Of a DNA stretch of 48,468 nt, positions 32,537-48,273 are shown piece after piece. The translations under genes and the position numbers were made by a program. The DNA is from a virus. A model generated the notes under the pieces. It had not been told where the DNA came from, did no database searches, and worked only from the letters and a program-made list of their open reading frames with translations. Where the stretch lies: the IMG/VR virus record IMGVR_UViG_3300017779_000017, positions 1-48,468 of that record; one strand, written 5' to 3'. Positions within the stretch are counted from its first letter, which is position 1, and the number at the start of each line of letters is the position of its first letter.

Positions 32537-33439
32537 ATGTCATATACAATTAATAAATTAGGCGCTTCGGATATAACAGTAGAATACGGTACCCTTAATA
32601 CAGAAACCAGCCTACAACTTGTTGGTAAAGATTATTTTGGATACGGTGAAGCAATTGCTCAAAACTTTGTTGATCTACTAGAAAATTTTGCAAGCGACAA
32701 CACAAGTACCGGCCCATCAAATCCAATAGCAGGTCAGCTATGGTATCATAAAGATGTAGATACACTTAAAGTTTATGATGGAGTTAAATGGAGCGGAACA
32801 ACATTCAATCAAGAAACAATATTAGATAACGGATCAACAGAACATGATTGTTTTGTAGTTAAAGCAAACAGTGTGCCAGTTGCTATATTCTCAAGTGATG
32901 CTGAATTTATAATTCATTCATCAGAAACACAATACCATGGAGACATAGCAGGCGGACTAAACAAATTTCCAGATAATAAAATCCATAAAGGATTAACACT
33001 GGGTAAAGATATGAAAATGCACGGAACGGCAACTGAAGCAGAATACGCCGACCTTGCAGAACTTTACACAAGTGATGCAGAGTATGAAGCAGGCACCGTT
33101 GTTAAAATTGGCGGCGAAGCTGAAGTAACACAGACAACAATTGAGTATTGTCCAGAAGTATTTGGTGTAGTATCTACTAACCCAGCATACTTAATGAATA
33201 GTGCTGCAGAAGGACTAACAGTGCCAGTTGCACTAGAAGGAAGAGTTCCTTGTAAAGTTATGGGCGAAGTTCATAAAGGACAACGTCTTATTTCAAGTGA
33301 TGAACCAGGTGTAGCTAGAGCAGTATCAGACTATGAAAAAGAAGTAGGCATGGATTGGTTCCGTGTTGTTGGTCGTGCATTAGAAAATAAAGATACGCTA
33401 GGTATTGGATTAGTTGAAATTGTAGTTGGAGTAAAGTAA
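32537..33439 (+). CDS. Tail fibre-like protein with C-terminal peptidase-like domain
   Basis: A 300-aa protein. The N-terminal half (GQLWYHKDVDTLKVYDGVKW near residues 65-84) is the short repeat typical of marine phage fibre proteins. The C-terminal half (YADLAELYTSDAEYEAGTVVKIGG; VFGVVSTNPAYLMN) matches the domain often found at the ends of such fibres and related to the G2/chaperone-like peptidase group. It may be host-recognising or an assembly chaperone. Three bases separate it from the preceding stop; the next gene starts one base after its own. Confidence 0.72.
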   Translation: MSYTINKLGASDITVEYGTLNTETSLQLVGKDYFGYGEAIAQNFVDLLENFASDNTSTGPSNPIAGQLWYHKDVDTLKVYDGVKWSGTTFNQETILDNGSTEHDCFVVKANSVPVAIFSSDAEFIIHSSETQYHGDIAGGLNKFPDNKIHKGLTLGKDMKMHGTATEAEYADLAELYTSDAEYEAGTVVKIGGEAEVTQTTIEYCPEVFGVVSTNPAYLMNSAAEGLTVPVALEGRVPCKVMGEVHKGQRLISSDEPGVARAVSDYEKEVGMDWFRVVGRALENKDTLGIGLVEIVVGVK

Positions 33440-34993: not shown

Positions 34994-35890
34994 ATGCCTG
35001 AACACAAAGACAAACAAGGTGTATGTTTCTTTGTCTACAACAATGAAGAATTAGATTATGTAGACTTAGCCATGCTGGCAGCTAGATATGTTAAAGAGTA
35101 TCTAAAACTTCCTGTATGTATAATTACAGATGAAGGCACACATGGTTGGCTTAAACAATCACAATCACAAGAAGATATTGATAAGTTTGTTGACTATATA
35201 AAAATAACCACCGACGAACTTAAACCAAATATACGTAGACACTACGACAGTCCGTATACAGAATTTAAAGCACAATTTAGTAACAGTAACAAGCATAAGA
35301 TATGGGAATACAGCCCATTTGAACAAACGTTATTACTAGACACAGATTACATTGTCAAAAATAGTTTCCTATTAAAGAGTTTTGAATATGATGGTGTAGC
35401 AATGTTTAATAATGCATTAAGTATTAGAAACGATAAACCTCATCAAAACGAAATACTGTTATACGATCAAGGAATTAAAATGTGGTGGAGCACCGTTGTG
35501 TATTTTGATCGCAGTGACTTCAGTAAAATGTTTTTTGACTTATGGGCTCATATAGCAGACAACTATCAGTTTTATCAATTCCTATATAACTTTCCGGGTA
35601 ATTTATTTCGCACAGACTATTGTGTAAGCATAGCAGTGCATATTCTCAGTGGCATGGAGCAATCAAATATTATACATAACTATGATGACGAACCTATGTA
35701 TTTTGTTTCGCAACGAGATAATGTTATTGATGCAAACAATATACAAGACTGGATATGTTTAGGTAACAGTTCAACTGAAAGCTGGAAGGACATTCTTATA
35801 AAACACAGCAACTTAGATTTACATGTAATGAACAAACGTGCTTTGTTAAGAGTAAAACCAAAACTTGTGGAGCATTTTAATGCCAGATAA
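34994..35890 (+). CDS. GT-A (GT8-like) glycosyltransferase
   Basis: A 298-aa protein with a GT-A pattern. After an N-terminal beta-alpha-beta (GVCFFVYNNEELDYVDLAMLAARY), SPFEQTLLLDTDYIVKNS near residues 110-127 supplies the DxD motif (DTD) that binds the metal and sugar nucleotide. A Trp-rich block (IKMWWSTVVYFDRSDF) follows, as in GT8-type enzymes. It probably transfers a sugar to a phage or host acceptor. It starts directly after the preceding stop and overlaps the next gene by 11 bases. The next gene is its diverged paralogue. Confidence 0.72.
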   Translation: MPEHKDKQGVCFFVYNNEELDYVDLAMLAARYVKEYLKLPVCIITDEGTHGWLKQSQSQEDIDKFVDYIKITTDELKPNIRRHYDSPYTEFKAQFSNSNKHKIWEYSPFEQTLLLDTDYIVKNSFLLKSFEYDGVAMFNNALSIRNDKPHQNEILLYDQGIKMWWSTVVYFDRSDFSKMFFDLWAHIADNYQFYQFLYNFPGNLFRTDYCVSIAVHILSGMEQSNIIHNYDDEPMYFVSQRDNVIDANNIQDWICLGNSSTESWKDILIKHSNLDLHVMNKRALLRVKPKLVEHFNAR

Positions 35891-36725
35891 TATTGCACAA
35901 AATGGTTATGTAATAATTGCAGTCAACCCAACTGAATATAGACAAGCACAATGTTGTGCTTTCTCAATCAAAAGTAAAATGCCTGATGCAAGTGTTACAT
36001 TAGTAGTAGGCAAACAAAGTAAAGTTCAACAAAAGTTTCTTGAAGGGTTTGATGCAATTACTGAATTACCATTTACTGTTGCTACAAATTGTAGACAGAA
36101 TGACTGGCAGTTGTATTGGGCAAGCCCATATGAGAACACAATTGCTATAGATTGTAGCACATTGGTTAAAACTGATCTAACTAGTGCATGGGATTATTTA
36201 ATTGATCATTGCAGTATTGCATTTCCTAATTCAATTACTAACATGCGTAAAGATCAAATATATCCATTATATAAAAAACATTTAGAAAAAGATTATAACT
36301 TAGATGTAATTTACAGCGGTATATTCTTTTTTAAGAAAGATGAAATTGCTCTTAGACATTTCAAAATGGCAGATATTTATTTTCAATATTGGACTGATGT
36401 ATGTAGCAAATATTTAAAAGCAGAACACATACCAGATTTCTTTGACGCAGACATAATGCACACACTAGTAGCTGATCATACTAATGGAGATGTAGTAACT
36501 ATACCTAAGATATTAAGTTACATTGATATGAGAAACAGTGCAGGCAACACACTAAACAAAGTTAATAAGTGGACTGATAAACTTACTGTATGGCCAAGTA
36601 ATGCAGGAAAGATAAAAATACAAAACTATGCAATCAATGATGTTCTATACTATCATGAAGAAGAGTTTTTAACACAAGAAATATTCAATGAGCAACAGCA
36701 TCACTACAACAACATCACAAAGTAA
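35880..36725 (+). CDS. Glycosyltransferase-like protein with altered DxD motif
   Basis: A 281-aa protein related in layout to the previous one: SPYENTIAIDCSTLVKTDL near residues 83-101 lines up with SPFEQTLLLDTDYIVKNS, but DTD becomes DCS, so the second metal-binding Asp is lost. The rest (SGIFFFKKDE; FFDADIMHTLVAD) keeps the GT-A pattern. It may be a partner or pseudo-enzyme of its neighbour, or use a different metal geometry. ATG 35880 is chosen over an upstream TTG because it lies inside the end of the previous gene in the usual overlapping manner. The next gene starts within its 3' end. Confidence 0.65.
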   Translation: MPDNIAQNGYVIIAVNPTEYRQAQCCAFSIKSKMPDASVTLVVGKQSKVQQKFLEGFDAITELPFTVATNCRQNDWQLYWASPYENTIAIDCSTLVKTDLTSAWDYLIDHCSIAFPNSITNMRKDQIYPLYKKHLEKDYNLDVIYSGIFFFKKDEIALRHFKMADIYFQYWTDVCSKYLKAEHIPDFFDADIMHTLVADHTNGDVVTIPKILSYIDMRNSAGNTLNKVNKWTDKLTVWPSNAGKIKIQNYAINDVLYYHEEEFLTQEIFNEQQHHYNNITK

Positions 36726-37668
36726 TCAACAATGGAACATAAGATTTAACCCGGAGTCTGGCCGTATACTTGGGATTAGTCCACAACCATTTAAGCAAGT
36801 AAACGATAACGAACAGGTAGTATCTGTAACAAACAATGTATGCAGAGAGTTAGTATCTGGAAAAAAGAATATGAGAAAGTATTCTATGCATTGGGATTCA
36901 ATTGATAACCAATGGGATATTGATGCTAAAAGTGATACACTTGTATTAGAAATAAAAGGTAACAAACTAAATCAGTTTACTCAAGGCACACATCCTGAAA
37001 AGAATGATGTGTTTGTTCAAGTTATACGTAACGAAAATATTTTGAGAATTAAAATTAACTTGTTGACTATTAGACGTTCTCTTAATCTTGGACAGATTAA
37101 TAATATTAAAAATGAAAACCCTGACATATTAGATTTATATGTATGCAGAAAAAACAATCCAGATTATTTAATTGGAGTAATACCAGTTGATGCAATTGAA
37201 TTATTTAACAAGTATGTAATCTATATTGATGTTCCAAAAAATATTATTGAACATATTAATTCATGGGACGATATAAGTATTTTTACAAAACCTGTTTTTA
37301 AAACTTATGGTATAGAATTTACTGACATGTCAGCAGATAGTATACAAGATCATAATAAGAAGCACCAAGTATCAAACTCGTCACTGGATGCTCATATAAA
37401 TATGTATACATTAAATGATAATTTAATTATTGATAGTAAGCTAGATAAAGATATGATGCATTATTTTAATAATAAAAGATATATGCAATTCCATGTTTCT
37501 GATAGTCACATTGATAATTATGTAACCACGCTAAACGTAAGTGTAGCTAAGTTACTTTATTATAATAAAGTTAAATTAGACTTACCTGCTAACTGGCCTG
37601 CAAACCCATTAATTGCTTTTGCAGAAACTCGACTTGCAGTAAATTATATTACGGAGAAAGAACAATGA
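36688..37668 (+). CDS. Unknown protein (326 aa) in the glycosyltransferase cluster
   Basis: I recognise no family. The N-terminal 20 residues are Ser/Thr/Gln-rich. The body is beta-rich with Asn/Asp/Ile bias (WNIRFNPESGRILGISPQP; VFVQVIRNENILRIKINLL; VIYIDVPKNIIEHINSWDD), which may be a structural or carbohydrate-binding fold. No catalytic motif, signal peptide or membrane segment. It overlaps the previous gene by 38 bases and the next by four (ATGA), so it is expressed with them. A virion protein decorated by the neighbouring glycosyltransferases is one possibility (inference). Confidence 0.65.
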   Translation: MSNSITTTTSQSNQQWNIRFNPESGRILGISPQPFKQVNDNEQVVSVTNNVCRELVSGKKNMRKYSMHWDSIDNQWDIDAKSDTLVLEIKGNKLNQFTQGTHPEKNDVFVQVIRNENILRIKINLLTIRRSLNLGQINNIKNENPDILDLYVCRKNNPDYLIGVIPVDAIELFNKYVIYIDVPKNIIEHINSWDDISIFTKPVFKTYGIEFTDMSADSIQDHNKKHQVSNSSLDAHINMYTLNDNLIIDSKLDKDMMHYFNNKRYMQFHVSDSHIDNYVTTLNVSVAKLLYYNKVKLDLPANWPANPLIAFAETRLAVNYITEKEQ

Positions 37669-38651
37669 GTAAAATGCAAAGCATTAACGAATTTGATATT
37701 GTATATATCAGCTATGATGAACCTAATGCTGATGAGAACTACGCAGACTTATTAGATAAATGTCCATGGGCTAAACGTAGTCATGGAGTAGAAGGAAGTG
37801 ATGCAGCACACAAGGCCGCAGCCAACATGGCAGAGACTGATAGGTTTATTACTATTGATGCAGACAATATTGTAGATCCAGCTTTCTTCAGCGTGGAAGT
37901 AGACATGGATAAAATTACTAATGTTGATGTTATTAGTTGGGCTGGCAAGAACATTACTAATGGACTTGTATACGGCAATGGTGGCATCAAGTGTTGGCCG
38001 AAAGATGTTGTTATGAATATGCGAACACATGAAAATGCAGATCCTAATAACAAAGCTGCACAAGTAGACTTTTGTTGGAACATTAACTATGTGCAAATGA
38101 ATAATATCTATTGCACAGTAATGAATAACGGTAGTCCACTACAAGCCTGGCGTGCAGGTTTCCGTGAAGGAGTTAAGATGGGATTAGTAGACGGTGACGT
38201 AATAGATCCAGCTGACATGAAAAAGACAGTGCATGATAAAAACTACAAACGTTTATTAACATGGATGAGTGTTGGCGATGATAGTGAGAATGGCATATGG
38301 GCAGTGTATGGCGCACGTCTAGGATGTCATATGACAAACATTACTAGAACAGATTGGGATTGGAAAAACGTTAGAGACTTTAAATGGTTAACTAATTATT
38401 TTAATGAAAACGTATTACCAAAGTTTCAAAACAGTCCAGATCAATTATGCAAACGCACAGGCACACAATGGAATTACAAAGCAGTAGAAGATGAAAGCAT
38501 TAGACTTGGTATTGATTTACGTAAGAGATTAGATTTAGAAATTGCTGACTTAGGCAAAGAAGGCTCTCGATTCTTTAAAGAAGTATACATCAACCCAAGT
38601 CGTATGGGTGCTCAAATTAGAGAAGACCAGGTTGAAGATACATTAGAATAA
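37665..38651 (+). CDS. GT-A glycosyltransferase-like protein
   Basis: A 328-aa protein. FDIVYISYDEPNADENYADLL near residues 9-29 followed by RFITIDADNIVDPAFF near 60-75 is the pattern of GT2-type GT-A enzymes, with the DxD as DADN. A middle block (GNGGIKCWPKDVV) and a C-terminal helical region follow. Such genes are frequent in marine T4-like phages. The ATG overlaps the previous stop (ATGA). AcpS begins one base after its stop, so the glycosyltransferases and the carrier-protein genes form one operon. Confidence 0.72.
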   Translation: MSKMQSINEFDIVYISYDEPNADENYADLLDKCPWAKRSHGVEGSDAAHKAAANMAETDRFITIDADNIVDPAFFSVEVDMDKITNVDVISWAGKNITNGLVYGNGGIKCWPKDVVMNMRTHENADPNNKAAQVDFCWNINYVQMNNIYCTVMNNGSPLQAWRAGFREGVKMGLVDGDVIDPADMKKTVHDKNYKRLLTWMSVGDDSENGIWAVYGARLGCHMTNITRTDWDWKNVRDFKWLTNYFNENVLPKFQNSPDQLCKRTGTQWNYKAVEDESIRLGIDLRKRLDLEIADLGKEGSRFFKEVYINPSRMGAQIREDQVEDTLE

Positions 38652-38652
38652 A

Positions 38653-38967
38653 ATGAATATAGGTGTTGATATAGTTTCAGTTAATAGGATTAAAAAAATC
38701 TATAACAAGTATGGAACACGATTCACTGATCAATTTTTAACAGATGTAGAAAAACAAAAAGAACTTACTCCAGAATATATATCAAAGTGTTGGGCAGTAA
38801 AGGAAGCATCAATTAAAGCAAGCGGCATAACAGATGCTAAACAATTCTCATATGGCAAGAACGGTAAGCAACCTATTGTAGTTACTAAAGTAAAAGGCAA
38901 TTGGAATCTAAGTGTATCAGATGAAAAAGATTATGCAGTAGCAATGGTAATAAAATCAGATGAGTAA
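38653..38967 (+). CDS. acpS: Holo-ACP synthase (4'-phosphopantetheinyl transferase, AcpS type)
   Basis: A 104-aa protein, slightly shorter than E. coli AcpS (126 aa). IGVDIVSVNRI at residues 3-13 gives the metal-binding Asp (D6), and WAVKEASIKASG at 47-58 gives the second metal ligand (E51) and the catalytic lysine (K55). It moves phosphopantetheine from coenzyme A to the serine of an acyl carrier protein. A matching ACP gene lies 6.8 kb downstream (45733). The C-terminus (YAVAMVIKSDE) ends as AcpS does. It overlaps the radical SAM gene by 8 bases. The motif match is strong; whether it acts on the phage or host ACP is open. Confidence 0.9.
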   Translation: MNIGVDIVSVNRIKKIYNKYGTRFTDQFLTDVEKQKELTPEYISKCWAVKEASIKASGITDAKQFSYGKNGKQPIVVTKVKGNWNLSVSDEKDYAVAMVIKSDE

Positions 38968-40534
38968 ACTAACCAAAGACTTTGATTGGGAAATTAATTC
39001 TCGAACAAAGGGATTTGATCCTGTTGGCAGAAACCAACAACACATGAAGGACATGCTAAACAGTACCGGTCCTGGATTCTGCTTGGCTAAATGGACACAA
39101 GTTACTATGCACTTAGGAAATGGCACAACACATAGTTGTCACCATCCATCACCACACAAGATACCATTGGATGAAATAAAGAACAATCCTGGTGCGTTAC
39201 ACAATACCAATTATAAAAAACAACAACGCAAAGCAATGCTTAACGGCAAACGTCCTAAAGAGTGTGATTTCTGTTGGCGAGTGGAAGACAACGGAGAGAC
39301 AAGCGATCGTGTTTATAAAAGTTTAGATCAATTTAGTTTTAAGCATCATGATAAGATTGCAGAACTAGTGGGCGACGAAGATATATTTCCAACATATGTT
39401 GAAGTGAGCTTTGGCAATACATGTAATTTTAAATGTGCTTACTGTGGTCCTGCATATAGTAGTCAGTGGCAACAAGAAATTAAAAACGGCGGTGCATATC
39501 AATTAACTGATATGACGTTTAATAATATAAGAAAAGATGAAACACACATACCGCAACGTGAACACAATCCATACATTGAAGCATTTTGGGAATGGTTTCC
39601 AGAAGCATACAAACACATGCATACATTTCGTATTACAGGCGGCGAGCCTTTATTAATTAAAGATACAATGAAAGTTATTGACTTTTTATTAGAGAACCCA
39701 AATCCAAATTTAAACTTTGCTATAAACAGTAATGGGTGTCCACCTGGCAAGTTATGGAATGAGTTTACCGATAAGGTGAGACAATTAGAAGAAAGAAAGT
39801 GTGTTAAAGATTTTGTATTGTTTACTAGTGCTGAAGCAGGTGGAGATAGAAATGATTATATTCGACATGGTATGGACTATGAACTATGGAAAAAGAATAT
39901 AGAATACTTTTTAGAAAATACATTATACGCAGGTGTTACTTGTATGAGTGCGTTTAACTTACTAAGTCTTAGTTCTTTTAAAGAGTTGTTACAATGGATA
40001 TTAAAACTTAAACAAAATTATAATTGGGCAGGATGGGACCATTGGTTACACAGCAAAGGGCTTCAACGACCTTTACTTAACAACAATGCTGTTAGAGAGG
40101 ATGGTAGACCTATAAAGCCAGCTCGTGTGCTAATAGATATTCCTTATCTAAGGCATCCTTCTTTCTTAGATGCAAACATTGCCTCAATTCCACTAATTCA
40201 AGATCATTTATTACCTGCAATTGACTTTATGTATGATAACTTATCGCATGCTGATTGGGGTGGCAACATAGCATTTGATGATTGGGAAGCAAACAAATTA
40301 CGTAGAACTGTAGTTGGTATTATTGATAAAGCACAAGAACATACAGCAGAACAGATAACAACCAATCCAGTTACAAGACAAAACAGAAGTAGGTTTTATG
40401 ATTTTATAAATCAATATGACAGTCGTAGAGATACTAATTTCTTAGATACATTTCCAGAGTATGCAGACTTCTTAGAGCTATGCAAACAAGAACATGATAT
40501 ACTGCACGAATTGAAAGCACAGGGCAAAGCATGA
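38960..40534 (+). CDS. Twitch-domain radical SAM protein
   Basis: A 524-aa protein. The 4Fe-4S cysteines are C155, C159 and C162 (CNFKCAYC), and FRITGGEPLL near residue 225 is the SAM-binding GGE motif. Three further Cys in the N-terminal region (C60, C102, C105; HSCHHP and CDFCWR) could bind an auxiliary cluster, as in twitch/SPASM-type enzymes. This family is common in marine T4-like phages, with unknown substrate. Radical SAM enzymes make a 5'-deoxyadenosyl radical to modify peptides, sugars or tRNA. It overlaps AcpS at the start and the P-loop gene at the end. Confidence 0.88.
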   Translation: MSKLTKDFDWEINSRTKGFDPVGRNQQHMKDMLNSTGPGFCLAKWTQVTMHLGNGTTHSCHHPSPHKIPLDEIKNNPGALHNTNYKKQQRKAMLNGKRPKECDFCWRVEDNGETSDRVYKSLDQFSFKHHDKIAELVGDEDIFPTYVEVSFGNTCNFKCAYCGPAYSSQWQQEIKNGGAYQLTDMTFNNIRKDETHIPQREHNPYIEAFWEWFPEAYKHMHTFRITGGEPLLIKDTMKVIDFLLENPNPNLNFAINSNGCPPGKLWNEFTDKVRQLEERKCVKDFVLFTSAEAGGDRNDYIRHGMDYELWKKNIEYFLENTLYAGVTCMSAFNLLSLSSFKELLQWILKLKQNYNWAGWDHWLHSKGLQRPLLNNNAVREDGRPIKPARVLIDIPYLRHPSFLDANIASIPLIQDHLLPAIDFMYDNLSHADWGGNIAFDDWEANKLRRTVVGIIDKAQEHTAEQITTNPVTRQNRSRFYDFINQYDSRRDTNFLDTFPEYADFLELCKQEHDILHELKAQGKA

Positions 40535-41211
40535 AACATCCTTCTATAAAAACAATACACTCTAAAGTAGGTTTATTAAATATATTATTCACACCAGGAG
40601 CAAGTGGAACTTTCTTAGCCAGCATGTTAGCCCAAGCAATAAGAGATCCTTGGTGGGAAGATTATAAGCCTTCAACTGATAATGAATTGTTTAGAGTGAC
40701 AAATGAATTTCTTAATCCATTTAATCATATTGCAATGACATGGCATCCAATTAATATTCCTGAAACACATGAAGTGTTAAGTCTAAAAGATATTAATTGG
40801 ATTAACTTAACTATTACTCCTGAAGAAGCTAAGTTTACAAAAGTATTATGGGCAATAAAAAGACAAGACTTTACAGGTGTTACAAAAGAAGATATACTGC
40901 ATAGACTATCAAGTGACACTGATGAAGAATACAAAGGCATGCATGCTAGACAAAAGCGTATAGCATCACAACTGTCAGTTAATAATAATGTGTTAGATGT
41001 AAAGTTTAGTGATGTGTTTGCTGATGGTAACACAGATGTAATACTATCCATATTGAACACAGTATACAAAGGACACTATGTTGCAAACGGTATAGTAGAC
41101 AATATAGCAAAACAATGTGTTGCCAAATACAAAGTAGATGTTAAGCTACATGATGATTTACTTGTGCCGGACGGTGACGGACTTATTGATTATATACTAG
41201 CTCAAGTATAA
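40531..41211 (+). CDS. P-loop (sulfotransferase- or kinase-like) protein
   Basis: A 226-aa protein. LLNILFTPGASGTFLASMLAQ near residues 14-34 is a beta strand-loop-helix with a GASGT phosphate-binding loop, the layout of sulfotransferase-type P-loops. VLDVKFSDVFADG near 152-164 may be the second nucleotide-contacting region. The acceptor is unknown. It shares ATGA with the radical SAM gene and meets the minus-strand gene at 41197 tail to tail with a 15-base overlap and no terminator. Kinase or plain P-loop NTPase function is possible. Confidence 0.55.
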   Translation: MKHPSIKTIHSKVGLLNILFTPGASGTFLASMLAQAIRDPWWEDYKPSTDNELFRVTNEFLNPFNHIAMTWHPINIPETHEVLSLKDINWINLTITPEEAKFTKVLWAIKRQDFTGVTKEDILHRLSSDTDEEYKGMHARQKRIASQLSVNNNVLDVKFSDVFADGNTDVILSILNTVYKGHYVANGIVDNIAKQCVAKYKVDVKLHDDLLVPDGDGLIDYILAQV

Positions 41212-42201
41212 ATCAAAGAACCCATTCTTTCTTAGTTCTAAATTTATAAAATGATCTCCATACGTGTATGGAGTTCTATCAACACCTGAACTACTAAGGT
41301 TAGGCAAACTTGAATCTAATAGATCTTTATATAATTTAAAACCCATGTCATTGTTATGATACATATATGTAAACTCTGTATCTGGCATAGTATTTGCTAT
41401 ACTATTAATTGATTGTAGCTCTTCTGGTATATCTTTACAAAATACCAGGTTACGCAATGCTACTTCAAATGGAACTGTAAAGAAATTAGACATTTTATAC
41501 TTTCCACCTACTGGTGCGTAATACCCATTGGTTAATACAACATTAGGATCGCATGTTGTAGTGCCGCTTGTTATTAATACTCTAGTAGCATTTAAATAGT
41601 AAGCAAGCATACAACTACTGTGTCCATTCTTGCAATCAGCAATAACAGTATACTCTGTGTTTGGAATTAACTTCTTGATATAGTCAGCTATCTTTTCTGG
41701 ACTGTTAAGTTCATCATTGATACCATCATACAAACAACTATCATACAATACTGGATTGCGATAACTTCTTTTAACATCATCTACTATGCTTATAACATTA
41801 TAGTCGGTGTAATGATCTAACATCCAACTGCCTTGATGTTCAACTGAATTTCTAGCAAGTTGTAGTAACCAACTGCCGCCACTTACTGTTACTATAGTTT
41901 TATCTTTGCCTCTATCAACATATGATACTGCATCATTATGATCTTGTATTGAATTATAATGATTATTTTCATACATTAATGTATCTATGTTTTTTAAATT
42001 ATCAAAATTATCTACAGCATATTGTCTCTGTTCAGCGGTAACTTGATCAGAATTATTATTCAAGTGCTTTATCCAAAATTGATTCATTGCACTATAAAAG
42101 TTTATACTTTGATTTGAATCCTCAAAGTCCCAATCATTGTCAGCTATGTATTGTATAATAGGGCACTGCCATTTTCTTCTGCCCGAATAATAAAATTTCA
42201 T
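41197..42201 (-). CDS. Alpha/beta-hydrolase-like protein (tentative)
   Basis: A 334-aa protein. TIVTVSGGSWLLQLARNS near residues 102-119 and YTVIADCKNGHSSCMLAYYL near 184-203 look like the beta strand-turn-helix of an alpha/beta hydrolase, with GHSSC as a possible nucleophile elbow (S195), followed by the strand ATRVLITSG. The N-terminal 100 residues are helical and the C-terminus is not recognised. A hydrolase or acyltransferase acting with the ACP system would fit the neighbourhood, but this is inference and the family match is weak. The ATG directly follows the stop of the upstream gene, with GGTGGA as ribosome site. Confidence 0.5.
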   Translation of the reverse strand: MKFYYSGRRKWQCPIIQYIADNDWDFEDSNQSINFYSAMNQFWIKHLNNNSDQVTAEQRQYAVDNFDNLKNIDTLMYENNHYNSIQDHNDAVSYVDRGKDKTIVTVSGGSWLLQLARNSVEHQGSWMLDHYTDYNVISIVDDVKRSYRNPVLYDSCLYDGINDELNSPEKIADYIKKLIPNTEYTVIADCKNGHSSCMLAYYLNATRVLITSGTTTCDPNVVLTNGYYAPVGGKYKMSNFFTVPFEVALRNLVFCKDIPEELQSINSIANTMPDTEFTYMYHNNDMGFKLYKDLLDSSLPNLSSSGVDRTPYTYGDHFINLELRKNGFFDLYLS

Positions 42202-43242
42202 TTATATTCCACCACTCCACCCTGGAAAGATATTAGCATCATATTCTTTTTCAAGTTCCTCATTGGTTAGTTTTTCTAACTGTGGTATAACACCATCTGG
42301 CCAATACTCCGCTCTTACTGGAAATGGTGCTATTGGAACCAGTGGTGCTTTTGGTGGATGTGTTTGCAATGGATAAGTGTATACGTTTGGTGTATACCTT
42401 GCTATATATGGAAACATACTCTTAGGTATGTTCATCTTAGATGAAATTCCAGCAATCATTTCATGTGTGTCTATTTGAGGATAGCCACGATAAATTTTAT
42501 GCATTGAATGATTACTGCTATGCTTACTAGGTATATGTTCTAGTGCATCGTATACCCATACGTCTAATGCATTGCCAACTCCCATTACCCATAAGTCTTG
42601 ACCGTTAGGAAACATCATTGTTCCGTTGTATCTTCTAATAATTTCTATAGGCTGATATAATATTAAATTTTTATCAGCAGTGCAAAACGTTTGACGCTTG
42701 TTTACTGGATTATCCATTAAACTGTGAACCATTGTTTCAAATGCATGCATTGGCCATACCAGAACATCATAACGTTGCATAACAACTAAGTCATAGGTTA
42801 TATCTGCTTCAGCTTCATATTTTTGCTTTAGCATAATAACTTCGGTCCACCCTGCTAATACCTTAGACTGTAGTATAGATTTTTTAATATCTCTGAGTTC
42901 ATTTTCATATTCAGTTGTATATAATTTAAATTTTTTTGGTTTGTAATGTTCAAGTATTTGTTTTGTTTGATACTTAACTGCATCTTCTGGTAGATGTTGT
43001 TGATCTTTAGCATACTCATAATCAAATTTTTCTTTGTTATACTTGTGTCTTGTATATGTAGTTTCATATTCTTTTAAACTACAAAAGAAATCTACATTTA
43101 TACCATCCATTTTGTAAAATTGTTTTATAGATTCTATACATGCATCACCTGTTCGATATTGCCCATACATGCACACAGCTACGTTTTTAATTTTTATTCT
43201 ACTATCTTGAAGCTGTTCGTCTCTCCATTTTTTATTCGGCAT
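42202..43242 (-). CDS. Glycosyltransferase-like protein (346 aa)
   Basis: ATG 43242 is chosen because TTGGAGGAT stands just upstream; the longer reading to 43317 overlaps the previous gene. KNVAVCMYGQYRTGDACIES near residues 19-38 and YDLVVMQRYDVLVWP near 152-166 (R-x-D) resemble the GT-A-like domain of uncharacterised glycosyltransferases found in phages and giant viruses. GQDLWVMGVGNALDVW and the Pro-rich C-terminus follow. It probably transfers or binds a sugar, acceptor unknown. It overlaps the upstream gene by 11 bases. Confidence 0.6.
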   Translation of the reverse strand: MPNKKWRDEQLQDSRIKIKNVAVCMYGQYRTGDACIESIKQFYKMDGINVDFFCSLKEYETTYTRHKYNKEKFDYEYAKDQQHLPEDAVKYQTKQILEHYKPKKFKLYTTEYENELRDIKKSILQSKVLAGWTEVIMLKQKYEAEADITYDLVVMQRYDVLVWPMHAFETMVHSLMDNPVNKRQTFCTADKNLILYQPIEIIRRYNGTMMFPNGQDLWVMGVGNALDVWVYDALEHIPSKHSSNHSMHKIYRGYPQIDTHEMIAGISSKMNIPKSMFPYIARYTPNVYTYPLQTHPPKAPLVPIAPFPVRAEYWPDGVIPQLEKLTNEELEKEYDANIFPGWSGGI

Positions 43243-43753
43243 AAAAATCCTCCAACGAAGTCCATTGTATATTCCTTTGCCACAATGTTCTTTGTAACAA
43301 TTGTCTACTAGTATCACCTGCTAACATCTGCGGTTCGTTTTTATAACTATCAATCCATTTCCATACACTTACTAATTTCATAAAACAACTATAGCTGGTT
43401 ACAAATGTATTGGGTGTAGGAGTTGGCTCAGGATAGTGTCCAACATCATCTATGACTCTAAACATATGATCAAATATAATTGTGTTCTTGGGAAGTTTAT
43501 TGAACCTATCTAGTAGATAATCAAAGTCGTATGGATCTGTTGTTGCACAAACTGTAGAGCAATTGTTGGCAAGCTCATGCTGTCCATACTTGTCATACAT
43601 GTTTACACCATTTGTCCAGTGTGCTTTAAAATTAGTATACAAAGAGTGTTCGTATTGCAACCAAGGGTTCACAGTATCATTACGTTTTGTTTTGAATATT
43701 TCGTATGTTGAATGGTTGAAGCTAGTTGCACCAGTTACGCTTAGTAGTATCAA
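43232..43753 (-). CDS. Unknown protein (173 aa), TTG start
   Basis: No family recognised. The start MILLSVTGATSFNHSTYEIFK has a beta strand-Gly turn-helix look that might be a nucleotide-binding N-terminus but lacks a canonical P-loop. The rest is rich in aromatic and Asn/Asp residues. TTG 43753 is used, with AGGGAG six bases upstream and a minus-strand late promoter (43778-43786) giving a leader of about 19 nt. First gene of a three-gene minus block with the GT-like and hydrolase-like genes. Confidence 0.62.
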   Translation of the reverse strand: MILLSVTGATSFNHSTYEIFKTKRNDTVNPWLQYEHSLYTNFKAHWTNGVNMYDKYGQHELANNCSTVCATTDPYDFDYLLDRFNKLPKNTIIFDHMFRVIDDVGHYPEPTPTPNTFVTSYSCFMKLVSVWKWIDSYKNEPQMLAGDTSRQLLQRTLWQRNIQWTSLEDFYAE

Positions 43754-43777
43754 AGTTGACTCCCTATAATTATGTAT

Positions 43778-43786
43778 GTATTTATC
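43778..43786 (-). promoter_or_regulatory. Late promoter (GATAAATAC) for the 41197-43753 block
   Basis: Minus-strand GATAAATAC, with predicted start near 43772. It is only two bases from the plus-strand late core at 43789, making a compact divergent pair. Confidence 0.6.
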
Positions 43787-43788
43787 GA

Positions 43789-43796
43789 CTAAATAC
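43789..43796 (+). promoter_or_regulatory. Late promoter (CTAAATAC) giving a leaderless aminotransferase transcript
   Basis: CTAAATAC, then TAGT, then ATG at 43801. The core has one change from ATAAATAC. The spacing is identical to that before gene 25, so transcription should begin at the A of ATG. No Shine-Dalgarno site. Confidence 0.5.
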
Positions 43797-43800
43797 TAGT

Positions 43801-44580
43801 ATGGCGTTCACTAAATTGATAGACACCTTTATACTTCCGGAGGTGCAAGCTGAACTGGATAAAGTAAAACCGCAGCTCAACGGAAGGCACCAATACGAAA
43901 CTAATATCAAGACTTGGCTTAAACCTTTAATAGATTTAAAAGACTTTTATGTATATCCAATGAATGGTATAACTGAATGTATTAACTGGTGGCAACAGCA
44001 CGAAAAACGAAACGTTAGAAAAGCCAAAGGTGACTACGAATGGGTAGACTATAACAAAGTAATGACAGTTGGTAATACAATTGCTTATGTTAGTTGTCCT
44101 AGCAGTATTGATGGAAACTACACAGAGATACCAGATGAGGTTCCTGTTGTGCTTGATATAGCATATGCTGGGTGTGTTCCTGTTAAACCAATTAAGTTAA
44201 AAGACAATGTAGAGAAAGTATTCTATAGTTTAAGTAAGCCATTTGGTATAGGAAACATAAGAACAGGTTGGTATTTTACTAGACGCCCGGACGCAAAACT
44301 ACATGCACTAAGCATAGAAGCAGCATATTATAACCATTGTGCTAATCAGTATGCAGAACATGTAATAAATACATACAGTATAGATTATATACATACAGAA
44401 TTAAAGGATATACAACACAGCGTTTGTGCTGAACATGACCTAACACCAAGTGATTGTATTTGGTTAGCTACTAGCACAGATGAACAATACAAAGACTTTA
44501 GACGTCATGAACACACTGACGTTGCGAGACTCTGTATCACAGAATTGATTAAGGAATATTATGGAAAACAGTCCAGGTAA
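43801..44580 (+). CDS. Fold-type I PLP aminotransferase-like protein (short)
   Basis: A 259-aa protein, shorter than usual class I/II aminotransferases (350-400 aa). VVLDIAYAG at residues 116-124 matches the DxxY block (D119 pairs with the PLP ring), and YSLSKPFGIGNIRTGWYF near 142-159 matches SxSK...GL..R.G, with K146 as the PLP lysine and R154 binding phosphate. MNGITECINWW near 54-64 fits the N-terminal NGxxE helix. It would move an amino group to a keto-sugar or keto-acid. The start at 43801 follows a late promoter core by 4 bases; a longer reading from 43726 would run through the promoter. It overlaps the radical SAM gene by 20 bases. Confidence 0.78.
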   Translation: MAFTKLIDTFILPEVQAELDKVKPQLNGRHQYETNIKTWLKPLIDLKDFYVYPMNGITECINWWQQHEKRNVRKAKGDYEWVDYNKVMTVGNTIAYVSCPSSIDGNYTEIPDEVPVVLDIAYAGCVPVKPIKLKDNVEKVFYSLSKPFGIGNIRTGWYFTRRPDAKLHALSIEAAYYNHCANQYAEHVINTYSIDYIHTELKDIQHSVCAEHDLTPSDCIWLATSTDEQYKDFRRHEHTDVARLCITELIKEYYGKQSR

Positions 44581-45721
44581 AAATATATCAGCAGCAGAAC
44601 GCATAGAGTTCAAGCCAACTGAGGAAATGAACGCTCCTATGACTGGTGACCCGACCAAGGATAATATTACTATTCTTGATGACAAGCCACCTATCTTTCA
44701 TAGCTTACCAGAGTATGATATAGAAAAGAATCCATTTAGTTTTTTATATGTTGACATGACATATGATTGTAACATGGAATGCGAGTTCTGTTATAACCCA
44801 GTTAGAACATACAGCACACTGGACATCGAATGGTTTGAAGATGTATGTGCTAGACTGCCACACCCTGTTAACTTTAGATTGTTAGGCGGTGAACCAACAC
44901 TGTATCCGCATTTAGATAGAGCATTAGATGCCGCTACCAAACACGGACACCAAGCAGCAATTGTTACCAATGGATTGCGTTTGGCTAGCATGAGTTATGC
45001 TAAGAAACTTAAAAAGGTTTTAGATCGTAACCCTACAGTAAACGTTAGCTTGAGTATGAACGGTGGTATGCATCACGATGATTGGTATATAGATATTGAT
45101 GGGGAGAGCAGACGCAAGAAGAAAGTCAAAGCACTAGAGAACATGTTGGAACTTGGCTATCGTAGACTTTGTATTAACGCTATTATTGTTAAAGGTTTAA
45201 ACGAAGGACTAGTAAAAGAATTTTATGACAAAGCATTACAGCACCCAGGACAAATAACAAACATACGTTTCCGCACAGCAGCCAAACAAGGTCGTTGGAA
45301 TGATGAGATTGGTGCGTTTGATAATGATGAACACGATCAAACCAGTTACACAGGATTGCAACTGGATGAATACATTAAAACTGTAATACCAGAAGCACGT
45401 AGTCCTATTAAAGTAATACGTGACGGTTATCACCCTAGCACAGGTTCAGGAGTTAGACTCAATGTTCCAGGCTTAAAGTGTAACCAGTGTTGCTTTATGT
45501 ATTATATAAGACCACAGCTATGGGTTGCTACAGTTGAATTTGGATCACATAACAGTGCGTTATGCTGGAGACGAGGACAATTAGTGCAAGGCAATGGCGT
45601 TATACAACCATTCCACCATTACATGGATGAACTAAGTAGATACATTCAAACTTATAAGCCAGGTGGAATGAGGGATACAGCTTCACAAAAAGCAATAAAA
45701 AGCATACCTATTCAGGAATAA
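44561..45721 (+). CDS. Radical SAM protein with C-terminal Cys cluster (SPASM-like)
   Basis: A 386-aa protein. VDMTYDCNMECEFCYNP near residues 64-80 holds the 4Fe-4S cysteines C70, C74 and C77, and FRLLGGEPTLYP near 107-118 is the SAM motif. The C-terminus has several Cys (LKCNQCCFMYY; SALCWRR) that may bind a second cluster as in SPASM enzymes, which often modify peptides. AAGGA precedes the ATG. The ACP gene follows 11 bases after its stop, so this enzyme may work with the carrier protein. It is distinct from the twitch-type enzyme at 38960. Confidence 0.86.
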   Translation: MENSPGKNISAAERIEFKPTEEMNAPMTGDPTKDNITILDDKPPIFHSLPEYDIEKNPFSFLYVDMTYDCNMECEFCYNPVRTYSTLDIEWFEDVCARLPHPVNFRLLGGEPTLYPHLDRALDAATKHGHQAAIVTNGLRLASMSYAKKLKKVLDRNPTVNVSLSMNGGMHHDDWYIDIDGESRRKKKVKALENMLELGYRRLCINAIIVKGLNEGLVKEFYDKALQHPGQITNIRFRTAAKQGRWNDEIGAFDNDEHDQTSYTGLQLDEYIKTVIPEARSPIKVIRDGYHPSTGSGVRLNVPGLKCNQCCFMYYIRPQLWVATVEFGSHNSALCWRRGQLVQGNGVIQPFHHYMDELSRYIQTYKPGGMRDTASQKAIKSIPIQE

Positions 45722-45732
45722 AGGATAAAACT

Positions 45733-45975
45733 ATGAACAAAGATGAAACAAAACAAGCAATACAAGATGTATTGACTGACGGCTTATTCCTCAAAGAGGA
45801 TACAGTATTTGATTGGACTACAACATTTGAAGCTCTAGGACTAGATAGCTTAGATAAGATTGAATGTAAAATGACAATCGAAGATGGATTAAGCGTAACA
45901 TTACCAGAAGATAGCTTTGCAGGTGACGTGCTAACTGTAGAAGATGCTGTTAACTTGGTAATGGAGCATGCATAA
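45733..45975 (+). CDS. Acyl carrier protein
   Basis: An 80-aa acidic four-helix protein of the expected size. FEALGLDSLDKIECKMTIED at residues 32-51 contains the DSL motif; S39 is the phosphopantetheine attachment site. LPEDSFAGDVLTVEDAVNLV completes the ACP pattern. It carries acyl or aminoacyl groups as thioesters. AAAGGAT stands before the ATG. It lies between the SPASM-like radical SAM gene and the SGNH gene, and a phage AcpS (38653) could activate it. No condensing enzyme or adenylation domain is visible in the window, so the loading enzyme is either host-encoded or elsewhere. Confidence 0.92.
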   Translation: MNKDETKQAIQDVLTDGLFLKEDTVFDWTTTFEALGLDSLDKIECKMTIEDGLSVTLPEDSFAGDVLTVEDAVNLVMEHA

Positions 45976-46639
45976 CTATAAAAAATTAGTTGTAGCTGGT
46001 TGCAGTGTAAGTGATAGGGGCGGTGGAGTAGACTGGTGTTATGGAGATAAACTAGCTGAACTACTAGATGCTGAATACGATCATCAAGGTGTAATCATTG
46101 GCAGCAACGATAGAATATTCCGTGTAGTAACAAACAGAGTTATTGAAAGACACATAGACAGCAGCACACTTGTTGTAATACAATACAGTAATCCATTAAG
46201 ACGAGAATTTTGGACTTGTAACGAACCAGATGCTGGTAGACCTCACCGTAGACCTATACCATTAGAAGAACCCTATGATGATGGCTGGCTGATTCGTTAT
46301 AAACCGAATGCAGCCCGTTGGCAAGTAAACAAACACAATAAAAAGTTTTTTGAACTATACGAAACACAGTTTAGCAACCAGAGGTTTGTATATGAAAACT
46401 TTAGAGCTCAGCACTATGCTTTTATGCATATGCTGGTTGCACATCACATCCCACATGTATTTTTAAATGCTTGGGAATACTTTGACAGACGACAGTTAAC
46501 TTTCACACCTACAAGTCTAGTAATAAACATAACCAAAGATAACTTTCCTGAAGAACTTCAGCAAAAACCCAGAGACTTTCATTTTAGTAACGAAGGACAT
46601 ATAGAAATAGCCAACAGGATATACAGTGCGTTACAATAG
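45968..46639 (+). CDS. SGNH/GDSL hydrolase-like protein
   Basis: A 223-aa protein. KKLVVAGCSVSDRGGG near residues 5-20 is the block-I region (G-C-S in place of GDS), and FHFSNEGHIEIANRI near 203-217 fits block V (H near the C-terminus, usually DxxH). Such enzymes hydrolyse or transfer acyl esters, for example O-acetyl groups on sugars; with an ACP beside it, thioester release or acyl transfer is attractive (inference). The middle carries polar and Arg-rich segments. The start overlaps the ACP gene by 8 bases. The Asp of block V is replaced, so activity is uncertain. Confidence 0.68.
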   Translation: MHNYKKLVVAGCSVSDRGGGVDWCYGDKLAELLDAEYDHQGVIIGSNDRIFRVVTNRVIERHIDSSTLVVIQYSNPLRREFWTCNEPDAGRPHRRPIPLEEPYDDGWLIRYKPNAARWQVNKHNKKFFELYETQFSNQRFVYENFRAQHYAFMHMLVAHHIPHVFLNAWEYFDRRQLTFTPTSLVINITKDNFPEELQQKPRDFHFSNEGHIEIANRIYSALQ

Positions 46640-47456
46640 AATAATACTGCTAGGGTTTCCCAAGACAGGAAACACAACCATACACAATACACTGCGTCAT
46701 TTAGGTTATGACAGTTTTATACAGCATTGGACTGATGTAGAACCTGCACACATGGCTGAACCCGACAATATAGAAGCGTCACAGAAGCTGGTGTTAAACA
46801 TACCAGAGAACAGTGGAGCAGCACTAGGCACACTGGGTCAGTTAAGTTTGTGGAAACAGTATACCGAGCGTTATCCTGATGCACTATTTGTATTAAACAC
46901 ACGAAGCGATAGAAGTCACTTAACAAGTATATACAAGCATGCATGGTATGATTGGGAACAAAATGGACAAATTAGCACTTGGAAAACATCTTATTGGCCA
47001 CCAAATGCCCAAGTCGGTTTCAGAAGATTAAGTGCCAAACACAAACACGAAAGCAATATAGAACAAAACATCGGTGATGTAGCATACATTTGTGTTGATA
47101 TAGGAGAACCTGGCTGGCAAGACACACTGGTAAAGTTGATAGATCCCAATGCCGATATCAACAAGTTATTAACAACGGGCTACAGTTATCCAGGATTTCA
47201 ATTTGAAAGTGTGCAAATGCGTAGTAAGTTAACTGAACTACATAGTAATTACCGTTTAGACAGTAGCTTACCCGTAGAATACATGAATGAGATCAACAGT
47301 GTAGTAGATGCTACACTCGACGCAATAGAATGCGACAAACAGTTACAAGCTCATATGGAGAAGGAACGCTACCACTTAGAACATCTAAAAACTCACAGAA
47401 CAGCTGCAGAACAACTAAGAGCAGAACTGAAACAATTTTGGGCCGAATCCAGCTAG
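46626..47456 (+). CDS. Sulfotransferase (PAPS-dependent type)
   Basis: A 276-aa protein. IILLGFPKTGNTTIHNTLRHLGY at the N-terminus contains the 5'-phosphosulfate loop (PKTGNTT), the hallmark of PAPS-dependent sulfotransferases. A middle segment (ALFVLNTRSDRSHLTSIYKHAW near 99-120) fits the 3'-phosphate binding strand and helix. The C-terminus is a long charged helix. It would sulfate a hydroxyl or amine, probably of a glycan or the product of this pathway. Start GTG, overlapping the SGNH gene by 14 bases, with AGGA upstream. Last gene of the plus operon. Confidence 0.85.
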   Translation: MRYNRIILLGFPKTGNTTIHNTLRHLGYDSFIQHWTDVEPAHMAEPDNIEASQKLVLNIPENSGAALGTLGQLSLWKQYTERYPDALFVLNTRSDRSHLTSIYKHAWYDWEQNGQISTWKTSYWPPNAQVGFRRLSAKHKHESNIEQNIGDVAYICVDIGEPGWQDTLVKLIDPNADINKLLTTGYSYPGFQFESVQMRSKLTELHSNYRLDSSLPVEYMNEINSVVDATLDAIECDKQLQAHMEKERYHLEHLKTHRTAAEQLRAELKQFWAESS

Positions 47457-47586: not shown

Positions 47587-48063
47587 CTATAACCGTGAAT
47601 GGAGATTCAAAGCTGCTACCCAGTCATCTATTGATATTATATCTTTAACAGGAGTATACAGGCTTTTATAATAGTAACTGTTGGTATCTATGCAAGAGTA
47701 TTGATGACTACTATGATTCCAATCAGTTAGTTGAATCTCTAATAGTTCCTCGGGTGAGAGATCTGTTAGCGGAAGATAAATCTCATCTTTTAATCTATCT
47801 ATACCAAACTCTTTGCATATAGTAAGCCAATCTGATTCTGTAGGATTAGTGTATGGATGTATTGCACGACGAAGCTGATCCCGACTTACATAAGCACTAC
47901 CAACAGCCATCAGTAATTTTTCATACTTAAACGTGCTGAATATGTCGTGATCACAAGCATGTCCATGGATACAGTAAGTATCCTGAATGGGAAAGTCACG
48001 GAATACATCGCTGTAATCTATATCACCTGGATCGTAAGGATAACTTTGCTCACTCATGTTCAT
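47587..48063 (-). CDS. Unknown protein (158 aa)
   Basis: No family recognised. The N-terminus MNMSEQSYPYDPGDIDYSDVF is acidic and Tyr/Pro-rich; CIHGHACDHD near residues 31-40 (C, H, C, H, D) could bind a metal. The rest is mixed alpha/beta with a long acidic helix (LTDLSPEELLEIQLTDW). ATG 48063 is chosen because the late promoter TATAAATAC lies 4 bases upstream with no Shine-Dalgarno site; another ATG at 48057 is possible. The Cys-rich extension to 48264 would run back through this promoter and is rejected. Single-gene unit with no visible partner. Confidence 0.6.
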   Translation of the reverse strand: MNMSEQSYPYDPGDIDYSDVFRDFPIQDTYCIHGHACDHDIFSTFKYEKLLMAVGSAYVSRDQLRRAIHPYTNPTESDWLTICKEFGIDRLKDEIYLPLTDLSPEELLEIQLTDWNHSSHQYSCIDTNSYYYKSLYTPVKDIISIDDWVAALNLHSRL

Positions 48064-48067
48064 GTTA

Positions 48068-48076
48068 GTATTTATA
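48068..48076 (-). promoter_or_regulatory. Late promoter (TATAAATAC) giving a leaderless transcript
   Basis: Minus-strand TATAAATAC, then TAAC, then the ATG at 48063: the same 4-base gap as at 16799 and 43789, so the predicted transcript starts at the A of ATG. Confidence 0.65.
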
Positions 48077-48180
48077 GTGCTACATTGTAACACAGTAGCA
48101 GGACGACATCTAACCCACATACACGTGTTGTAACGCACTAAATATAGCCTAAAACGAACGTAAAGAGGGAGAACTATATA

Positions 48181-48273
48181 GTGAATAACTGGATAAAGAT
48201 CATAGCGTATATATGGGTAACAGCAGTATGGACAACTATAGTATACGGAACAGTAATAACACATATAGTGTGA
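48181..48273 (+). CDS. Small single-helix membrane peptide (30 aa, GTG start)
   Basis: GTG 48181 has GGGAG nine bases upstream. The product MNNWIKIIAYIWVTAVWTTI... is one hydrophobic helix with a Lys near the N-terminus, typical of small membrane proteins. A CTAAATAT element at 48138-48145 could be a weak late promoter. Possible roles include a holin-like or membrane regulator, but nothing in the sequence decides this. It overlaps, in another frame, an 83-aa ORF reading that lacks a ribosome site. Confidence 0.5.
   Translation: MNNWIKIIAYIWVTAVWTTIVYGTVITHIV

Follow-up and report, generated by a model that had tools for sequence, protein, structure and literature searches.

A carrier-protein gene cassette with radical SAM and aminotransferase genes in a group of T4-like phages

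Gene content of the cassette

The stretch of DNA analyzed here, called the window, is the IMG/VR virus record IMGVR_UViG_3300017779_000017 (48,468 bases, used at its full length). At positions 38653 to 47456 it holds a gene cassette encoding a 4'-phosphopantetheinyl transferase (AcpS), an acyl carrier protein (ACP), two radical SAM enzymes (rSAM1 and rSAM2), and a predicted small pyridoxal phosphate (PLP) aminotransferase (mini-AT). The record has T4-like genes for a baseplate wedge protein, SbcC/SbcD-like nuclease subunits, and a late sigma factor. Its baseplate wedge protein is closest to those of jumbo phages, for example Pectobacterium phage CBB (~37%), and a near-identical record (G001, ~99.95%) carries the gp23 capsid gene. 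The cassette phages are T4-like, and from its SAR11-phage relations the window group is probably marine.

The features are listed below. Genes without a name are called by their first coordinate; records carry G numbers, and loci or contigs carry L numbers.

38653..38967, plus strand: AcpS, 104 aa (PF01648; D6/E51/K55; match to AcpS in the PDB)
38960..40534, plus strand: rSAM1, twitch-domain radical SAM enzyme (NF033640, NCBIfam N_Twi_rSAM)
40531..41211, plus strand: conserved cassette protein, fold unassigned, 226 aa, at the same position in all four lineages
41197..42201, minus strand: probable alpha/beta-hydrolase, 334 aa, candidate thioesterase/acyltransferase (AlphaFold2, hhalign)
42202..43317, minus strand: conserved cassette protein, glycosyltransferase-like by eye only (PHROG 13607, of unknown function, E 2.8e-11)
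43232..43753, minus strand: conserved cassette protein, function unassigned (tblastn 50-100% in relatives)
43801..44580, plus strand: mini-AT, predicted fold-type-I PLP aminotransferase, 259 aa, K146 (AlphaFold2 fold, SLSK lysine); the open reading frame (ORF) opens at 43726
44561..45721, plus strand: rSAM2, radical SAM enzyme (Radical_SAM PF04055; C70-x3-C74-x2-C77)
45733..45975, plus strand: ACP, S39 (PF00550 above cut-off)
45968..46639, plus strand: SGNH-like protein (Pfam DUF6071), swappable cargo
46626..47456, plus strand: sulfotransferase (Pfam PF17784), swappable cargo
37665..38651, plus strand: conserved left-border gene of the variable cargo (80-100% identity in the cassette lineages, 76% in several phages without AcpS)
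32537-33439: tail-fibre-type gene (PHROG match)

From 5' to 3', a giant ORF and the tail-fibre-type gene are followed by 37665, AcpS, rSAM1, 40531, the three minus-strand genes, mini-AT, rSAM2, ACP, and the SGNH and sulfotransferase genes. An earlier reading of the same DNA, here called the original prediction, had reported gene overlaps, and these are real (AcpS/rSAM1, rSAM1/40531, mini-AT/rSAM2, ACP/SGNH, and SGNH/sulfotransferase). Its single operon was dismissed because the central genes of the cassette, 41197, 42202, and 43232, are encoded on the minus strand.

The calls of AcpS, with D6, E51, and K55, and of an ACP with S39 were borne out. AcpS scored 38.7 bits on PF01648 (cut-off 25) and matched solved AcpS structures (best E 6.6e-11); its catalytic D6/E51/K55 are unchanged in seven of seven aligned AcpS proteins. 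It fell below the stricter TIGR00516 (49.2 vs. 59.8 bits). The ACP scored 28.6 bits on PF00550 (cut-off 20.8), and the serine of its DSL motif, S39, is unchanged in 4/4 aligned sequences.

The two radical SAM enzymes had been labeled "twitch" and "SPASM-like." The first label is correct: rSAM1 belongs to N_Twi_rSAM with 299.8 bits, against a curated cut-off of 170. The second is unsupported, since the Pfam search found no SPASM domain after the rSAM2 core at E<=1. The late cysteines of rSAM2 (C307, C310, C311, C335) do not fit the SPASM pattern. This enzyme matches Radical_SAM at 6e-14 and, among the matches listed, passes no NCBIfam family cut-off. The best PDB-sequence match of its profile was tetraether lipid synthase (E 8e-11), spanning the radical SAM core only.

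The short fold-type I aminotransferase stood by structure and not by sequence. It reached 17.8 bits on PF00155 (cut-off 19.7), and the search of PDB sequences gave nothing convincing. The AlphaFold2 model of 259 aa (pLDDT, the predicted local distance difference test, 80.9) gave class-I aminotransferases as the best Foldseek match (E 1.8e-9), and the SLSK motif supplies the Schiff-base lysine, K146. By fold and lysine, mini-AT is thus predicted to be a class-I aminotransferase, a fold of ~310-430 residues shrunk to 259. The TTG start at 43726 is less likely than the ATG at 43801.

The product of 41197 is probably an alpha/beta-hydrolase. Its AlphaFold2 model resembles this fold (best E 7e-5), and the protein is homologous to a hydrolase that adjoins the ACP in other phages (hhalign probability 93, E 2.8e-7, 223 columns; a single homologue gave a weak probability of 61, strengthened by the use of eight). 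Its sequence gave nothing convincing in the PDB-sequence search. The conserved residues are D189-C190-K191 and H317. In a comparison that included distant homologues such as L053:7901-8920, the putative nucleophile stood as D-C-K in 4/4 of the window group and as D-S-K in 8/8 distant homologues, with a conserved C-terminal His. A nucleophile in the motif GHSSC was set aside, as the alignments point to D-[C/S]-K.

Three further cassette proteins gave little by profile. For 40531 there was no Pfam match above cut-off and no convincing PDB sequence (best E 0.13), 42202 had no PDB-sequence match at E<=1, and 43232 had no Pfam match. Upstream GT-A glycosyltransferases had also been claimed; Pfam and PHROG gave no relevant match for 35865-36725 and 37665-38651, nor did PDB sequences for the latter, and the claim found no profile support.

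After the ACP, 45968 matched DUF6071 (40.2 bits, cut-off 27) and GDSL at E 0.25 only; the SGNH label is a manual reading of the motifs GCSVS and DFHFSNEGH, and the overlap of this gene with the ACP gene is real. The sulfotransferase call was confirmed (PF17784, 35.6 vs. 22.8 bits); among the relatives compared, this gene was matched solely in the near-identical L008/L006. Whereas the window and L008, its copy, have SGNH and sulfotransferase genes at this place, L010 has a different SGNH, L004 a HAD phosphatase, and L005 a HAD, a nucleotidyltransferase, and a third N_Twi radical SAM enzyme. The copy L002 ends after the ACP.

Two features flank this region. Between the baseplate wedge gene and other tail-region genes, 20335-31884 is a single ORF of 3,849 codons, probably a giant tail fibre. 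At the far border, the conserved gene 47587-48264 (minus strand) weakly resembles plant Lir1, with a score under the threshold (PF07207, E 1.1e-4).

Conservation of the cassette and recurrence of its core

Relatives of the cassette were located by single-protein scans of IMG/VR. Besides the window, five contigs have it; two of these are near-identical copies, and the rest are three further lineages, L010, L011, and L012 (rSAM2 97, 85, and 87% and ACP 93, 65, and 65% identical to the window, respectively). The order and strands of AcpS, rSAM1, 40531, [41197, 42202, 43232], mini-AT, rSAM2, and ACP were identical in 4/4 lineages, including L012, where the cassette proteins are only 45-91% identical. 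Both the transferase and the carrier protein occurred in all six window-group records. Between the window and L010, the nonsynonymous rate (dN) was well under the synonymous rate (dS) in all six genes tested: dN/dS was 0.020/0.33 for AcpS, 0.035/0.37 for ACP, 0.040/0.21 for mini-AT, 0.013/0.27 for rSAM2, 0.044/0.40 for rSAM1, and 0.074/0.24 for 41197 (larger dS values are saturated). AcpS, mini-AT, rSAM2, and ACP thus travel together in the window group. L036 and L037 encode AcpS as well, on contigs that break off inside rSAM1.

rSAM1 is commoner than the cassette. Its relatives (36-100% identity) occurred in 22 records, with AcpS in five and ACP in seven of them. Some records are rich in matches to the N_Twi_rSAM profile, weak ones included: 17 in G026 (91 kb; the record behind L040), 14 in G019 (116 kb; L025), 12 in G007 (95 kb; L013), and nine in G009 (192 kb; L015).

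Among 50,697 named phage records, AcpS and rSAM1 had no tblastn match. ICP1-like vibriophages and Erythrobacter phage vB_EliS_R6L carry, like the window, a phage-borne ACP (36-38% identical to that of the window); it is a single ACP, and the two other genes were not matched there.

The core recurs in a second context. In a profile search, seven more contigs (L007 and L046-L051; five lineages after collapsing copies of 99.9-100%) had rSAM2 at 58-61%, and all seven encode mini-AT, an AMP-binding ligase, and a thiolase. PF00550 (ACP) and PF01648 (AcpS) were found in 0/7 of them (records of 18-137 kb). Of three ligases tested, two scored above the cut-off for TIGR02262, the benzoate-CoA-ligase family, and that of L051 fell short (349 vs. 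375 bits). Thiolase_N and Thiolase_C were above cut-off in 5/5 lineages, and QACTT and GHP are retained in all five. The second catalytic cysteine of thiolases is missing from its place, so condensation by this enzyme is uncertain. The other genes differ and include a methyltransferase and, in L046, a sulfotransferase; a "2OG (2-oxoglutarate) oxygenase" label was given by eye and had no Pfam support. A RuBisCO-large-chain-like protein (PF00016, E 1.4e-19) lies within the cassette of L051, at 13737-14735. AMP ligase and thiolase are loading and condensing enzyme types. The original remark that neither type is visible holds for the window and not for these seven contigs. The rSAM2 and mini-AT pair is therefore accompanied by an ACP in one group and by an AMP ligase in the other, which is what would be expected of enzymes acting on a thioester.

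A third context came from an ACP search over 26 records, in which G019 and G022 had an rSAM2 homologue (32-34%) directly before the ACP (hhalign of this homologue with rSAM2: probability 99.6, E 1.3e-23). The ACP followed directly in 11 of 16 such loci, and of the other five, four have no ACP there and one (L072) is truncated; a 41197-type hydrolase came after the homologue in 12 of the 15 loci where it is untruncated. With copies collapsed at 97%, the ACP was adjacent in 5/9 and the hydrolase in 8/9. These phages and the window group share 76% identity in gp23. By these profile alignments, an rSAM2-type enzyme, an ACP, and a putative hydrolase are linked again in distant phages.

We then scanned 47 of 49 collected records, which encoded AMP ligase (14), ACP (17), AcpS (11), ketosynthase (7), gp23 (11), and mini-AT (21; 15 strong and six weak). 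Since most of these records are fragments, little can be read into an absence. Besides gp23, G042 (342,607 bases) encodes AcpS, three ACPs, a Trp_halogenase-family protein, and a ketosynthase in which Cys-His-His motifs are present; it further has an AMP ligase, a shorter AMP-binding protein, one desaturase supported by Pfam, and another protein similar to it. A loading and a condensing enzyme thus stand together in this genome, and in 0/6 window-group fragments. G034, G036, and G046 share with G042 a run of genes in the order AMP ligase - halogenase - desaturase - GNAT-like - ketosynthase; in G042 and G034, two desaturase-like genes flank the GNAT-like gene. The GNAT label was given by eye and had no Pfam support (no match, or 14.7 vs. 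20.7 bits). The run adjoins DHFR and thymidylate synthase genes (DHFR and ThyA were profile-checked in G042 only). Its loci lie on T4-like jumbo contigs (L074:8104-14551, L082, L083, and L084).

The viral scan for mini-AT gave 21 loci, of which the weak L114 was dropped. Among the remaining 20 (copies not collapsed), 12 had rSAM2 nearby, six had a desaturase without rSAM2, and two had neither within 6 kb. Outside viruses, one scan of a genome collection with peptide patterns was made for each protein; 0/34 pattern matches were relatives of rSAM2 and 1/55 was a relative of mini-AT. The latter, L055 (JABAAK010000084.1), is on a contig filed under a 'Ca. Paceibacter' metagenome-assembled genome that, judged by its genes, is probably T4-like phage DNA. 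A cellular origin of the two enzymes was dismissed on these counts, and within this pattern-limited scan both families appear to be phage-specific so far.

The isolated SAR11 phage Mosig (Pelagibacter phage Mosig EXVC030M, MT647606) shares mini-AT with the window (43.6% identical to that of L046). Next to its tail fibres it has a desaturase, mini-AT, an FMN reductase, and a TauD-type dioxygenase; L055 likewise has a PF02668 dioxygenase and a PF00487 desaturase adjoining mini-AT. Unlike the window, Mosig gave no ACP, AcpS, or AMP ligase, and its gp23 shares only 37% identity with the gp23 of the window group.

Proposed function and rival explanations

We give an even chance to the reading that this is an exchangeable cassette of T4-like phages for chemistry on a thioester-bound acyl unit, with radical and amination steps, that feeds the decoration of envelope or virion. 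It starts from the enzyme families, active-site residues, conserved order, and recurrence of the core with carrier-thioester enzymes observed above, and adds a loading, step order, substrate, product, and destination that we infer. The cassette would sit after the tail-fibre region as a biosynthetic unit. AcpS would put phosphopantetheine on Ser39 of the phage's own ACP, which would carry the acyl unit as a thioester; loading may be done by a host enzyme or by one encoded outside the fragment. rSAM2 would carry out a radical C-H reaction on the acyl unit or its acceptor, mini-AT would aminate a carbonyl, and the 41197 hydrolase may release or transfer the product. rSAM1 and the lineage-specific SGNH protein, sulfotransferase, HAD phosphatase, and nucleotidyltransferase would act on the acceptor. 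As the destination, we consider a glycan of the host envelope or virion likeliest; its alteration may change recognition or superinfection.

This destination is the weakest step. A surface glycan is suggested by the sulfotransferase, HAD, and nucleotidyltransferase cargo and by the location near a tail-fibre-type gene. It also fits the view taken of the hypervariable region of pelagimyophages (PMC7029224).

Several observations weigh against the proposal. The hydrolase fold depends on a poor model (pLDDT 56), and the cassette is not a single operon. AcpS occurs without an ACP in L040/G026 (91 kb). The hydrolase without an intervening ACP was found in L062, L064, L066, and L067 (4/15 loci), and the ACP without the hydrolase in L057-L059, which are copies of one lineage. 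AMP ligase and ketosynthase were found in 0/6 of the window and its five close relatives (all fragments, 33-62 kb). The sulfotransferase is present in 1/4 lineages and the SGNH gene in 2/4; sulfation is therefore not a core step of the originally predicted joint pathway, which is partly supported. The glycan acceptor is itself conjectural; desaturases, ketosynthase, and halogenase in relatives point equally to a lipid or small molecule.

The strongest rival, which we consider rather unlikely, keeps the thioester chemistry and takes the product to be such a lipid or a diffusible small molecule, with membranes or competitors as its target instead of a glycan. The product would be aminated and might, in relatives, also be halogenated or desaturated. 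Desaturases occur in 6/8 mini-AT loci without rSAM2, in Mosig and L055, and beside the rSAM2-homologue module in 9/16 loci; 6/6 of those tested reached the Pfam cut-off, L053 exactly at it. The jumbo clusters described above and the tetraether lipid synthase match of rSAM2 point the same way, as does the secondary-metabolite interpretation offered for a cyanophage halogenase cluster (PMC7824862). The cargo of the window group is of sugar type, however, and ketosynthase is missing from all six of its fragments.

The genes could also be independent additions (morons) in a recombination hot spot, with ACP and AcpS unrelated to the radical SAM and aminotransferase genes. rSAM1 and 37665 are present in phages without AcpS/ACP, the cargo after the ACP is exchanged between relatives, AcpS stands alone in G026, and Mosig has mini-AT without the carrier genes. 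Scattering of the genes in relatives was the refutation foreseen originally, and the order and strands found in the five other contigs speak otherwise. This order, kept in L012 in spite of its divergence, and the renewed linkage in distant phages make morons improbable, and the new evidence favours a joint pathway.

Very improbable is an auxiliary set that boosts fatty-acid synthesis of the host through added ACP and AcpS. The ACP reached 40.8 bits on the fatty-acid-synthesis equivalog TIGR00517 (cut-off 70.45). Its helix II has K42 and K46, unchanged in 4/4, against the acidic helix II of fatty-acid ACPs. The window lacks a ketosynthase, and mini-AT and rSAM2 would be left unexplained. The precedent for such a set is acpP-fabF-fabG in Roseobacter prophages (PMC8224337).

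DNA hypermodification, whose pathways include radical SAM and PLP enzymes like those together in this T4-like phage, is scarcely credible for genes near a tail-fibre gene, and we know of no role for ACP or AcpS in it.

Radical SAM cassettes and phage clusters resembling secondary metabolism are already published. Pelagimyophages are T4-like, as the window is, and have radical SAM gene cassettes in a host-recognition cluster, a hypervariable region with tail fibres and glycosyltransferases; a freshwater group carries fabF and a desaturase (PMC7029224). The main text of that paper has no mention of acyl carrier, AcpS, phosphopantethein-, ketoacyl, or halogenase. The cyanophage cluster of the jumbo phage survey, with halogenase, carbamoyltransferase, and 2OG oxygenases, was interpreted as polysaccharide decoration or secondary metabolism (PMC7824862); the main text does not mention acyl carrier, radical SAM, desaturase, aminotransferase, or thiolase. 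A tryptophan halogenase is described in cyanomyoviruses (PMC2984593). In the AcpR/AasR/serine palmitoyltransferase system, a dedicated ACP, an AMP-type synthetase, and a PLP enzyme likewise cooperate on an acyl unit, in a cellular sphingolipid pathway whose abstract names no radical SAM enzyme (PMC9386255). A phage cassette of AcpS, ACP, radical SAM enzyme, and aminotransferase was not among the matches listed and read from the open PMC full-text literature, which leaves out most subscription journals and bioRxiv. The PLP enzyme of the AcpR/AasR system is presumably an alpha-oxoamine synthase and not a class-I aminotransferase.

Tentatively, a marine T4-like jumbo clade may run its own carrier-protein biosynthesis, with phage AcpS, ACPs, AMP ligases, ketosynthase or thiolase, radical SAM enzymes, mini-AT, halogenase, and desaturases, and produce in the infected cell a new acyl compound that is aminated or halogenated; of this system, the window would be one ACP-type branch. 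Phages are known for single metabolic genes. By encoding a carrier, its activator, and tailoring enzymes, a phage would come with a complete pathway that does not depend on the carriers of its host, and the presence of mini-AT in an isolated SAR11 phage makes part of this system open to direct test.

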